From: Actinomycetes bacterium
GTDB lineage: Bacteria; Actinomycetota; Thermoleophilia; RBG-16-64-13
DNA: 55,676 nucleotides
Assembly: GCA_024637095.1 (NCBI GenBank)
Contig: JAGXFV010000037.1
Location: 1 to 55,676 of the forward strand
Direction: 5' to 3'
Below the pieces are notes generated by a model that ran no database searches, was not told where the DNA came from, and was given only the letters and a program-made list of their open reading frames with translations. A program made the position numbers and the translations under genes. Of the stretch, positions 27,285 to 31,168 are shown one piece after another (the stretch's first letter is position 1; every line of letters starts with the position of its first letter).

Positions 27285-28445
27285 TCAGGCGGCTGCGAGC
27301 CTCTCCTCAATAACGCGATGCGCCTTCACGAATTTGCTCAAGATGAAGAGGTAGATGAGGATCGCCAAGTACACGCTGATGTAGTTGAGGGCCGAGATTC
27401 CGCTGTACTGGACGAAGAACCCGTAGACGTACACTCCCAAGACCTGGGAGCCGACAAAGGCTCACACGAATCCCCACTGAGATGGAGCAAAAGCCGTCTT
27501 GGAAAACTCCGTCTTCAGGTAGTCACGGACCACGTACACCGCCGCCACCCCCCAGCCAATGGCCAGGACGTAGGAGCCGGTTATCAGCAGCGACGTCGAC
27601 CCCGGCACGTTCAAGGAGACCTGAGGCTGCACGTACTCGGCCACGCGATAGGCACCCAGTCCCAGCAGGCAGGAGATGGGCACGACCAAGAAGAAGCCGG
27701 GCAGTATTGGGTTGGGGGGCAATTCTCGCGCCTTGATATGCGTGTAGAGTAGGAACCCCAGCTTGGCGACCAACATCAGGACTCCGATCGCCAGGGCAAA
27801 TATCGTCCCCGCGGCGGCGATACCGGCAACGACGTCGTTCTGGGCCATCGAGGTGATCCCGGAGCCGGTGAGCGTCACCAGGCCAAAGGCGAAGACGTCG
27901 AGCAGCCAGATGAAGTTGAACTGGGTGAGGTCGACGCCTTCCGAGAACCAGGTTCGGCCGACCGTGACTTCGAGGAAGACGAGAATGGCCAGAAGCAGGC
28001 CAAAGACGATCAGCGAAGGAAGCATGAACGCCTGCATGTGCGTGCTCATTTGCGGCACGAAGAAGCCGAAGGGAGCCCAGAAGACGTTCACCGTCATGGC
28101 GAGGGAAGCCACTATGGCGAAGATCCCCGCGTTCTGATTCTTGTGGGGATTGTTCACGAAGGCTCGGTAGGCTCCCGGCTCCCTGAGCCAACCCCACAGC
28201 CGACCGACGAAATATACCGTGAGCCCGAAGTTGATGAGTGTGAAGGCGAGCAATATGGCCACCAGGGGCAGGTAGAGGGCGCTCTCAGCGCCGGACAGGG
28301 TTCCCCAGGTGACATTGGACAGAGTGATGAGACCTTCGCCGTGGGGGATGGCGAACTGCAGGTAGTTGAAGGCCATGAGCGCGATGCCGCCCGCGGCCAG
28401 GGAGGACTGGAACAGCAACGGATGAAACGGGATCCGCAGTCTCAC
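27285..28445 (-). CDS. Polytopic membrane protein with in-frame TGA, probable selenoprotein
   Basis: Read through the TGA at 27462-27464 (codon 328), this is one 386-residue protein. It has a GTG start with AAGGAGGG located in the end of the upstream gene, and about nine or ten hydrophobic helices. The 58 codons after the TGA continue the same membrane-protein style (AFVGSQVLGVYVYGFFVQYSG, YLAILIYLFILSKFVKAHR) and end in TGA at 27285. Seventeen bases after the TGA starts the loop of a SECIS-like hairpin (27434-27450). Both observations favour Sec insertion over a nonsense mutation. The local motif is GFV-U-AF. The fold may be distantly related to SLAC1/TehA-type transporters, which is uncertain. 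Third gene of the operon, 2 bp after the ArsR-lipoyl gene. I recall automated annotation using a TsoY (seleno)protein family name for such proteins, which I could not check. Confidence 0.82.
27434..27450 (-). promoter_or_regulatory. Bacterial SECIS element in the membrane protein gene
   Basis: Minus-strand CTCCCA (27450-27445), loop GGTCT (27444-27440), TGGGAG (27439-27434): a perfect 6-bp stem capped by GGUCU, beginning 17 nt after the in-frame UGA. As I remember it, the E. coli fdhF SECIS also carries GGUCU at its tip, 18 nt after its UGA; the G and U there contact SelB. Confidence 0.85.
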
Positions 28446-28447
28446 CG

Positions 28448-29329
28448 TTAGCCCTCCTTGATCCCGCTGTAGACGGATTTGCAGGTGGGCGAGCTCTTGC
28501 CGGTCTTCGCCGCCTCCGCCGCTGCCGGAGTAGCGTGCTCCGTGCCCCCGAGTCGCCGAGCGTATGCCTCAGCGTCGAGTAGCTGGGCTTCCCACCCTTC
28601 TGTCGGCCGAATCTTGACCAGCCAGGTCTCCTGCGGATTTTCGTTGACCGCCGCCGCGGTGGCCTCGGGGTTGGCTTCCAGGGCCTGCCCGGCGAGGGGG
28701 CTGAGGAAGTACTTCATGTTCTTCTTGGTCGTGGCGAAGGCGATCTCCTGATCCACGACCAGCTCCTCGCCGGCCTCGGGAAAAACCTCGAGCTCGATGA
28801 GGCCGCCCATCAGGGCCACTCCCGGCTCGGACACTCCGACCACTACCGTGTCCCCGTCGGCGCCGGTCTCGCTCTTCACCCAGTACTGGCGTGCACCGTC
28901 GTAGAGCCGGTCTCCGGGCAAGTCGAAGTCCTTTCCCAGGAAGCCTTCGAGTTTTGCCATGATCTCCCCCTTGTCGTCTTTGGCCCACCTCGCGGCGAGC
29001 CCGTCTCCCGTTCTCAACTGCTCCTGGAGCACCTCGCGCAGAAGGTCGCAGGCCTGGACCATCTTCGGGTAGGCCACGCGGTAGTAGATCTCATTGCCGT
29101 CCCTGCGTGTGCGCACGAGGCCCAGGTGCCGCAATACGGCGAGGTGCTGGGAAACGAGTGGTTGCCTTGTTCCCACCATCTCCGCCAGGTCGTTCACCCT
29201 GCGTTCGCCGTCGCTCAGAACCTTCATCAGCTCTACGCGCAGGGGGTGGGCCAGGGTCTTGCACACCTCGGCGTGCATCTCGTAGAGTCTTGGGTCTATG
29301 CGCCTCTCTGCCGAATCGAACAGGGCCAT
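28448..29329 (-). CDS. ArsR-type repressor fused to a GcvH-like lipoyl domain
   Basis: 293 residues. Residues 18-105 are an ArsR winged helix (AHPLRVELMKVLSDGERRVN, RQPLVSQHLAVLRHLGLV, wing RRDGNEIYYRV) with Cys23 and Cys94, a possible dithiol/persulfide sensor pair. Residues 130-265 are a glycine-cleavage-H-like domain: YWVKSETGADGDTVVVGVSE, then TTKKNMKYFLSPLAG, where Lys203 aligns with the lipoylated lysine, and NENPQETWLVKIRP. The C-terminal tail holds Cys283. Lipoate carriers related to GcvH serve sulfur oxidation (LbpA of the sHdr pathway) as well as glycine cleavage. No glycine cleavage genes are nearby. It sits between two selenoprotein genes (19 bp and 2 bp gaps) and could sense the sulfur status through its own lipoyl group. 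Confidence 0.88.
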   Translation of the reverse strand: MALFDSAERRIDPRLYEMHAEVCKTLAHPLRVELMKVLSDGERRVNDLAEMVGTRQPLVSQHLAVLRHLGLVRTRRDGNEIYYRVAYPKMVQACDLLREVLQEQLRTGDGLAARWAKDDKGEIMAKLEGFLGKDFDLPGDRLYDGARQYWVKSETGADGDTVVVGVSEPGVALMGGLIELEVFPEAGEELVVDQEIAFATTKKNMKYFLSPLAGQALEANPEATAAAVNENPQETWLVKIRPTEGWEAQLLDAEAYARRLGGTEHATPAAAEAAKTGKSSPTCKSVYSGIKEG

Positions 29330-29348: not shown

Positions 29349-29702
29349 CTAGTAGATGAGTACCTTGTCCGCCTCCATCGTCCACTCGGCGAGTAGATCC
29401 AGGGAGCCGCGGACCGTGCCGTCGATCATGGGTAGGGACGCCAGGCCACGGGCGTCCATGCAACTGCCTCATAACCCGATATCGGCCTTCTTCGCCACGA
29501 GGCCCTTCAGCATGCGCTCCATGGAGTAGTAGCCTTCGGGCGGAGACTGGCCGGCCAGGGCGCAGGCGGTGGCGTCCGCCGTCAGGAAGACCTTCACCCT
29601 TGCGTCATCCTGCTTGGCCACGGCCAGCGCGTGGCGTAAAGCGTTGTATGAGCGCTCAGACCCGTACGGTGCGTCGTTGAGAACGAAGAGCACTGATGGC
29701 AT
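29349..29702 (-). CDS. DsrE-family protein with in-frame TGA, probable selenoprotein
   Basis: 117 residues when read through the TGA at 29469-29471 (codon 78). The N-terminal part VLFVLNDAPYGSERSYNALR, FLTADATACALAGQ, GYYSMERMLKGL is a DsrE/DsrF-like fold used for sulfur relay. After the TGA the frame continues GSCMDARGL ... SLDLLAEWTMEADKVLIY, which completes the family. Cys homologues, as I recall them, have C-G-T-C-MDARG here, so the TGA replaces the first Cys of a CxxC redox motif: U-G-S-C. A SECIS-like hairpin follows (29436-29457). First gene of the operon; the ATG is at 29702 with GGGGGGA upstream. Likely handles persulfide or selenium-bound sulfur. Confidence 0.9.
29436..29457 (-). 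promoter_or_regulatory. Bacterial SECIS element in the DsrE gene
   Basis: Minus-strand GGACGCC (29457-29451), loop CGTGGCCT (29450-29443), GGCGTCC (29442-29436): a perfect 7-bp stem, loop starting 18 nt after the in-frame UGA, with G near the start of the loop. Confidence 0.78.
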
Positions 29703-29742
29703 TGTGGTCCCCCCGGTAGGCCAGTGGTCGGACCAGCAGCAT

Positions 29743-29777
29743 ATCGCATTATCGCGATGTTGCAATCCCATTGTCAG
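29743..29777 (-). promoter_or_regulatory. Promoter with ArsR-like operator of the selenoprotein operon
   Basis: On the minus strand: -35 CTGACA (29777-29772), 18 bp, -10 GATAAT (29753-29748). The -10 overlaps the dyad ATCGC-n6-GCGAT (29743-29758), a plausible operator for the ArsR-lipoyl repressor encoded second in the operon. A weaker alternative is TTGCAA with TATGCT, 16 bp apart. Confidence 0.55.
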
Positions 29778-29821: not shown

Positions 29822-31168
29822 TCAAGATCCGAACGCGAAGAGGGGCGGGAGGACGACGACTACGCCGGCGGCCCAGAGGGCGAAGACCGGGAGGTACCTC
29901 GTCTGCCAACGCGCCAGGCGATGGAAGGTGGCTCGCCCGGTGAGCAGCCGGAGAGAGAGCCAGGCAGCCGCGATCAGGTTCACCAGCAGTACCAGGTTGA
30001 GGCCGAGCGCGGCCACGCGGTTGGGGGTGAACCCGAGGTCGCCGACCCGGGCAAGCATCGAAGTGAGCACCATCATGTCGAGAACCAGGGCGGCGGCGAC
30101 CGCCACGAGCTGGACAACGTCCATGAAGCCGGCTCTCTGCGTCGACTCTCGTGCCGAAAGCCCGTAGAGAACGAGTCCGAGGACCACGATCAGCAAGACG
30201 TCGAAGACGGCGAGCTGTTCCCGGTCGAACTCACTACCGAGCCCGGATACCGCGTAGGTGAGGGCGGAGCCGGTCAACATCAGCGCGAACAGCGGGGTGA
30301 AGACCATGGTGAGCACGGGCGCCATGTTCTCGACAACGCTCTGCTTGGCTCCGACCAGCCAGGCGGCCACGATCACCGCGCCGGCAGCTCCCGAGGGAAT
30401 TACCCACTCGATGACGCTCTCGCCCAGGCCCGCCCGCACCGGTTCGAGGACGGCCAAGGTGAGCCCCATCAACACCCCTCCGCCGAGGGCGATGAGGACG
30501 TAGTAGATGAACCACTCCCCGCTGAAGCGCACGAAGTCCATGCGCCGCTCGTGAGAGCGCCACTCGCCGCCCACGTATGTGTAACCTACGGCGAACCACA
30601 GCGCCACGGGCAGGTGCAGCGCCGCGAGCATCTCGGTGGAAGATTCCGGGTCGAAGGGATAGAGGTTCATGACGAGGGCGCCCAGCACAAAGGGTGTGGC
30701 CGTCAGCAGGCTCTGCCGGAGGGGCAGCCCGCGTTGTTGGGCGAAGTACCAGGCGAGGAAAGGCAGCACAAAGAGGCTGACGTTGCGCATAAACCACGGC
30801 GAGGGATCACCCGACCAGCCGTCTCCTCTGAGCGCGATCTGGATCGTGACGGCTGCGGCGACGGCAAAGAGGAGTGCTTCGACCAGACCGTTCGAGGTGC
30901 GCCCCGACTCGGCCTTGGACGGCAACACGAGCTGTTTCCAGAGCCGGTCGCTGTGCTCCAGCGCGAACTCCCGGGACAGCCCGTCGATGTCGCCCATCCG
31001 CTTGACGGCGACCAGAAAGGCCTCGTCGGCGCTGAGACCGCCCGCTCCCAGGTCGGCCATCTGATCGCGCAGATGGGTTTCCAGCTCATCGATGTCAGGA
31101 TCAGCGACGGTCCGCGAACGGCCGACGTAGGCCCGCCATTCGGCGATCCGTGACTCGAGAACGTCCAT
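29822..31168 (-). CDS. Permease-prefix-domain membrane protein
   Basis: 448 residues. Residues 1-75 form a cytoplasmic permease prefix domain (IAEWRAYVGRSRTVADPDID, ELETHLRDQMADL, DEAFLVAVKRMGDIDGLSREFA), then about ten membrane helices of no recognised family. It lies 4 bp downstream of a PadR-type regulator, a frequent pair in which PadR controls the membrane gene. It may belong to an envelope-stress system. Confidence 0.85.
   Translation of the reverse strand: MDVLESRIAEWRAYVGRSRTVADPDIDELETHLRDQMADLGAGGLSADEAFLVAVKRMGDIDGLSREFALEHSDRLWKQLVLPSKAESGRTSNGLVEALLFAVAAAVTIQIALRGDGWSGDPSPWFMRNVSLFVLPFLAWYFAQQRGLPLRQSLLTATPFVLGALVMNLYPFDPESSTEMLAALHLPVALWFAVGYTYVGGEWRSHERRMDFVRFSGEWFIYYVLIALGGGVLMGLTLAVLEPVRAGLGESVIEWVIPSGAAGAVIVAAWLVGAKQSVVENMAPVLTMVFTPLFALMLTGSALTYAVSGLGSEFDREQLAVFDVLLIVVLGLVLYGLSARESTQRAGFMDVVQLVAVAAALVLDMMVLTSMLARVGDLGFTPNRVAALGLNLVLLVNLIAAAWLSLRLLTGRATFHRLARWQTRYLPVFALWAAGVVVVLPPLFAFGS

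Follow-up and report, generated by a model that had tools for sequence, protein, structure and literature searches.

A predicted YchN-like DsrE selenoprotein encoded with an ArsR-GcvH fusion and the selenoprotein TsoY in an actinobacterial genome

The operon and its products

The window analyzed here is a 55,676-nucleotide stretch of an Actinomycetes genome (GenBank assembly GCA_024637095.1, contig JAGXFV010000037.1), and its minus strand carries an operon in the order dsrE, ArsR-GcvH fusion, TsoY (Table 1). The dsrE frame contains a single in-frame UGA, at codon 78 in the context GL-U-GSC-MDARGL; read through this codon, its product is MPSVLFVLNDAPYGSERSYNALRHALAVAKQDDARVKVFLTADATACALAGQSPPEGYYSMERMLKGLVAKKADIGL-U-GSCMDARGLASLPMIDGTVRGSLDLLAEWTMEADKVLIY, followed by TAG. 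Standard ORF calling yields a 100-amino-acid ORF that starts at an upstream ATG and stops at the UGA. An initial annotation, made from the sequence alone, had proposed a DsrE-family selenoprotein here, and both the TGA within a UGSCMDARGL motif and the normal completion of the frame in EADKVLIY-TAG are present as it described them.

Table 1. Features of the dsrE operon within the window
Feature	Position	Strand	Details	Basis
dsrE/ychN-like selenoprotein gene (predicted)	29349..29702	-	117 residues, Sec at 78, stop TAG	Pfam DsrE, YchN match, fold
UGA codon, predicted to be read as Sec78	29469..29471	-		aligned with first Cys of CxxC in Cys homologues
Cys81 codon, partner in the U-x-x-C pair	29460..29462	-		C81 invariant in 24-sequence alignment
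Putative bacterial SECIS-type apical stem-loop	29436..29457	-	7 bp, loop CGUGGCCU	comparison and folding
Palindromic site TTGCAACATCGCGATAATGCGATAT	29741..29765	-	contains -35-like TTGCAA, extends to -10-like TATGCT	
ArsR-type repressor fused to GcvH-like (lipoyl-carrier-like) domain	28448..29329	-		profile matches, comparison
TsoY selenoprotein, SLAC1-like membrane protein	27285..28445	-	Sec at codon 328, TGA stop codon 387	NF047643
TsoY UGA codon, predicted to be read as Sec	27462..27464	-	codon 328	
TsoY SECIS-type stem-loop	27433..27451	-	apical loop GGUCU	RNA folding

The dsrE product matches the Pfam DsrE profile (PF02635; 73.3 bits, cut-off 22.7). Its AlphaFold model (mean pLDDT 96.8) is of the DsrE/YchN fold and most closely resembles YchN (1JX7; Z 21.3 over 116 residues), followed by TusD (2D1P_A; 18.1) and DsrE (2HY5_A; 17.6), with residue 78 placed where a strand ends and a short helix begins. 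Escherichia coli YchN is also the closest solved relative (E 6e-28), and its CKTC aligns with U-G-S-C. We classify the protein by profile as YchN-type rather than TusD, because it scores 23 bits with the TusD/DsrE equivalog model TIGR03012, under the cut-off of 89.25.

In the second gene, the solved structures closest to the ArsR domain include BigR and SqrR, which sense sulfane sulfur. Its two cysteines, C23 and C93, have counterparts in the ArsR proteins of almost every other locus with a Sec-encoding dsrE, and the first of them is off the BigR/SqrR position in the alignment. The GcvH-like part matches NF045810 at 93.6 bits, under the cut-off of 150; read by eye, the lysine of the lipoyl motif seems to be retained (ATTKKNM). 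At three other actinobacterial loci (L050, L059, and L076), dsrE is likewise followed by ArsR and then by a GcvH-like gene; wherever the ORFs are readable these two are unfused, and the fusion so far appears confined to the source genus.

The third gene is a full member of the TsoY family, scoring 446 bits with NF047643 (cut-off 250) on the part before its UGA, and the family match runs on through this one TGA. The GGUCU loop of its hairpin resembles the SECIS loop of E. coli fdhF. The second UGA/SECIS pair that the initial annotation had counted in the operon is real, and it belongs to TsoY. The palindrome TTGCAACATCGCGATAATGCGATAT upstream of dsrE, probably the ArsR operator and promoter of the operon, overlaps the promoter-like hexamers; the sister species retains it, and a looser form occurs in other actinobacteria. 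When the regions preceding the dsrE genes of the other phyla were scanned for palindromes, no common site emerged.

Decoding of the in-frame UGA

A lack of Sec machinery had been named as grounds for rejecting the initial annotation. The source genome, 2.47 Mb in 49 contigs and 96.6% complete, encodes all of SelA, SelB, SelD, and tRNA-Sec. Contig C45 carries selA (555 bits), selB (325 bits, rising to 352 when its C-terminal piece is included), and tRNA-Sec (74.9 bits; cut-off 47), and selD (397 bits; G000:C40:12598-13521) has one TGA inside its own frame and so is itself probably a selenoprotein gene. A genome-wide reassignment of UGA to an ordinary amino acid is extremely improbable and was excluded, because UGA also works as a normal stop, ending both the gene upstream of dsrE (29822-31168) and TsoY at codon 387; the selA and selB frames, moreover, contain no UGA, and a tRNA-Sec is encoded.

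To place the UGA in an evolutionary context, we compared the gene with its homologues. Relatives occur in 21 of the 396 genomes of our Actinomycetota sample. Two of these, the source genome and a genome of the same genus (88% identical), have TGA at the site, and the other Actinomycetota relatives all have a Cys codon. The initial annotation had expected CGTCMDARG in Cys homologues and would have been undermined by homologues lacking this Cys; every collected homologue with a sense codon has Cys there, in CGTC or the kindred motifs CGSC, CATC, CTTC, CGIC, and CGVC, or in the CKTC of E. coli YchN. Across a 24-row alignment, positions 78 (Cys or Sec) and 81 (Cys) are invariant. We then scanned about 85,000 species genomes with the degenerate codon pattern TGA-G-[ST]-C-[ML]-[DE]-A-R-[GA], which detects only Sec forms with this motif and leaves Cys forms uncountable, and obtained 30 matches. 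Complete or end-cut YchN-like frames with the UGA at the same place account for 27 of them, including the same-genus genome (L069), and these come from Actinomycetota, Chloroflexota, Bacillota (Thermincola, Herbinix, Peptococcaceae, and others), and Fusobacteriota. The remaining three (L052, L058, and L073) are chance matches and not Sec-encoding dsrE genes. The protein tree calls for three changes of the Sec/Cys state, and well-supported branches force no fewer than two of these, which implies that Sec and Cys were swapped more than once.

The 100-amino-acid ORF returned by standard calling would fit a true stop at the UGA, in which case dsrE would be truncated, decayed to a pseudogene, or affected by a sequencing error. 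We regard this as very improbable, given that the UGA is kept in four phyla and that the frame beyond it is constrained as much as the part before it: when nine Sec genes from actinobacteria were pooled, pN/pS was 0.230 up to the UGA and 0.239 beyond it. Such equality argues against a genuine stop, because one would free the 39 downstream codons. The truncation reading is further contradicted by a covarying SECIS-type stem.

That stem is as the initial annotation described it, a perfect 7-bp helix whose arms (GGACGCC/GGCGTCC) enclose an 8-nt loop starting 18 nt past the UGA. Taken by itself as proof, however, it falls short, since the DNA is GC-rich and the energy from single-sequence folding was not significant (z of -0.28 and +0.41). 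An Rfam scan of the window gave no match. The stronger evidence is comparative. Of the 28 Sec genes, 21 have an apical hairpin of at least six Watson-Crick pairs after the UGA, and 0 of 19 Cys genes have one after the corresponding codon; synonymous resampling predicts 1.6 and 0.3, respectively. Actinobacterial stems show a compensatory change from C-G to U-A, and in clostridial and fusobacterial stems one pair occurs as U-A, C-G, or G-C and another changes from C-G to A-U. The covariation score of the latter set was reached in 0 of 500 shuffles, a kind of test whose counts are inflated by sequence kinship, so that the contrast between Sec and Cys genes carries more weight. The pairing register varies among phyla and the position of the hairpin is constant. 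This comparison across genes strongly supports a SECIS hairpin immediately 3' of the UGA. On the comparative evidence as a whole, the conclusion holds that the gene is predicted to encode a selenoprotein in which Sec replaces the nucleophilic Cys of a conserved CxxC.

Recurrent neighbors across phyla

TsoY exceeds its cut-off in only 3 of the 396 Actinomycetota-sample genomes, and in each of them the cluster also contains a YchN-like dsrE, with Sec in two and Cys (CGTC) in the third, whose ArsR carries a fused rhodanese and whose cluster continues with a cysteine desulfurase. In the Bacillota sample, 8 of the 14 genomes with TsoY above cut-off have an adjoining dsrE (six Sec and two of a distant Cys form), a proportion that is not independent because several of these genomes were first found via their DsrE. 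The two selenoproteins are not obligate partners, given that TsoY is present in just 9 of the 24 genomes with Sec-DsrE loci. The other recurrent neighbors of Sec-encoding dsrE or of TsoY are a NifS-type cysteine desulfurase, dihydrolipoyl dehydrogenase, GcvH, and an SQR-like flavoprotein; SelD and a YedE-like protein were each a neighbor in one locus. These sets vary between phyla, which means that donor and acceptor are not fixed.

Several individual loci are also worth recording. An ArsR-rhodanese fusion (4481-5152 of L117, genome G155) heads a cluster of DsrE(Cys), TsoY(Sec), and cysteine desulfurase genes; like the ArsR of the window, it is fused to a domain of the sulfur-carrier type, yet a different one. 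In a Thermincola genome (L051, 2250-3203, minus strand), the gene immediately preceding that of the DsrE selenoprotein is selD, and genes for GcvH and a radical SAM-like protein come next.

Proposed function and known systems

DsrE-like selenoproteins have been reported from the Sargasso Sea in 2005 (PMC1088965), from Desulfovibrio vulgaris (PMC1794560), and, as DsrE 1 and DsrE 2, from GOS (PMC2398784), and the initial annotation was right that metagenome surveys had reported them. They are now listed as an established group, defined by a PF02635 domain with Sec in UxxC (PMC13188914), and the window protein has both features when set against this definition. TsoY (NF047643) is listed in the same source after Haft and Tolstoy 2025. 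Both families are therefore already known, and the window gene adds a further member. Compared by description, the published DsrE-like selenoproteins share with ours the PF02635 fold family, Sec in U-x-x-C, and a downstream SECIS, but the excerpted descriptions do not mention a TsoY/ArsR/GcvH neighborhood. We found no statement of a DsrE-TsoY linkage in the literature examined, and the linkage may already have been published where TsoY was defined. No NCBIfam selenoprotein model matched the window's branch of DsrE, so standard annotation is likely to truncate such genes at the UGA.

Among characterized relatives, E. coli YchN (1JX7) has Cys where the window protein would have Sec. The TusD and DsrE subunits of TusBCD and DsrEFH (2D1P, 2HY5) have the same fold (Z of about 18) at about 20% identity; they differ in that the window protein has UxxC and its operon has no TusB or TusC partners. 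In our reading, which goes with a weak profile match, the first Cys position of the window protein may be that of the sulfur-carrying Cys of TusD/DsrE. YedF (PMC5322559) combines a DsrE domain, CGxC, and a link to selenium genes, whereas the window protein has no SirA domain and Sec in place of Cys. A closer parallel in gene content is the sHdr sulfur-oxidation set, in which the ArsR-type sHdrR/SoxR, DsrE3, and the lipoate-binding LbpA2 act together (PMC10451225). The two sets have similar kinds of parts, namely an ArsR-type sulfane-sulfur repressor (putative in the window), a DsrE-family sulfur carrier (likewise putative there), a lipoyl-carrier protein, and a membrane protein. In the window, however, the DsrE and membrane proteins are predicted selenoproteins and the ArsR is fused to a GcvH-like domain, and since the operon has no sHdr enzyme, we would say that it works like sHdr rather than that it is sHdr.

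We put at roughly three in four the probability that the DsrE selenoprotein, decoded by SelB, tRNA-Sec, and its SECIS, serves as a sulfane-sulfur or selenium carrier under ArsR control together with the lipoyl carrier and TsoY. A carrier role with Sec78 and Cys81 as a redox pair is the most likely one. In such a scheme, Sec would be inserted at UGA codon 78 by SelB and tRNA-Sec with the downstream SECIS hairpin; a cysteine desulfurase, a rhodanese, polysulfide, or a comparable donor would load Sec78 with sulfane sulfur (or selenium); Cys81 would resolve the bound atom; and the atom or electrons would pass on to the lipoyl carrier (GcvH-like domain) or to TsoY in the membrane. The ArsR-type sensor would repress the operon and release it when reactive sulfur, or else a related metalloid, appeared.

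The same Sec78-Cys81 couple could instead work as a thioredoxin-like U-x-x-C pair in a thiol-disulfide oxidoreductase or peroxide reductase, with no sulfur atom carried. UxxC is described as the usual selenoprotein redox motif (PMC1088965), both of its residues are invariant here, and a thioredoxin reductase-like gene lies near one locus (L048). We nevertheless consider this rather unlikely, as the fold is that of DsrE/TusD, a sulfur-relay fold and not thioredoxin, and sulfur-transfer genes are the recurrent neighbors. It is unlikely, too, that the system is devoted to selenium, with DsrE carrying or sensing selenium and either supplying SelD or guarding against excess selenide, and TsoY moving selenium species across the membrane. 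The Thermincola selD, the YedE-like protein near L048, and the established tie of YedF, a SirA/DsrE fusion with CGxC, to selenium metabolism (PMC5322559) are consistent with such a role, but the SelD linkage is found in a single locus, most neighbors are generic sulfur genes, and a Cys version of DsrE also occurs beside TsoY.

Returning to the ArsR-controlled carrier that we favor, no function has been attached to DsrE-like selenoproteins in the 20 years since they were first listed, and we found no account of the role of TsoY, a membrane selenoprotein named only recently. The recurrent pairing of the two across phyla is a lead on the function of both, and their repeated adjacency, in the company of genes for cysteine desulfurase, ArsR, lipoyl carriers, and SelD, provides a testable sulfur/selenium-transfer hypothesis for two orphan families. 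A more speculative version, which we hold only tentatively and think doubtful, is that Sec-DsrE and TsoY form one dedicated two-selenoprotein pathway in several phyla, running from cysteine desulfurase through the Sec carrier and a lipoyl protein to the SLAC1-like TsoY, switched by ArsR and moving sulfane sulfur or selenium, with ArsR fused to the lipoyl carrier in the source genus.

Two kinds of gene at these loci deserve a description. A flavoprotein gene adjoins the DsrE selenoprotein gene in divergent orientation in L057 (800-2068, plus strand) and also in L059, L061, and L063; its product has a sub-threshold match (115 bits) to the type III sulfide:quinone reductase model NF049943, to which it is related. 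In Clostridia, a Cys-rich protein of 110 amino acids with a CGGCPG motif is encoded next to TsoY in L067 (1204-1536, plus strand), L070, L092, L106, and L112; it has no NCBIfam match, and a cysteine desulfurase gene usually lies alongside.
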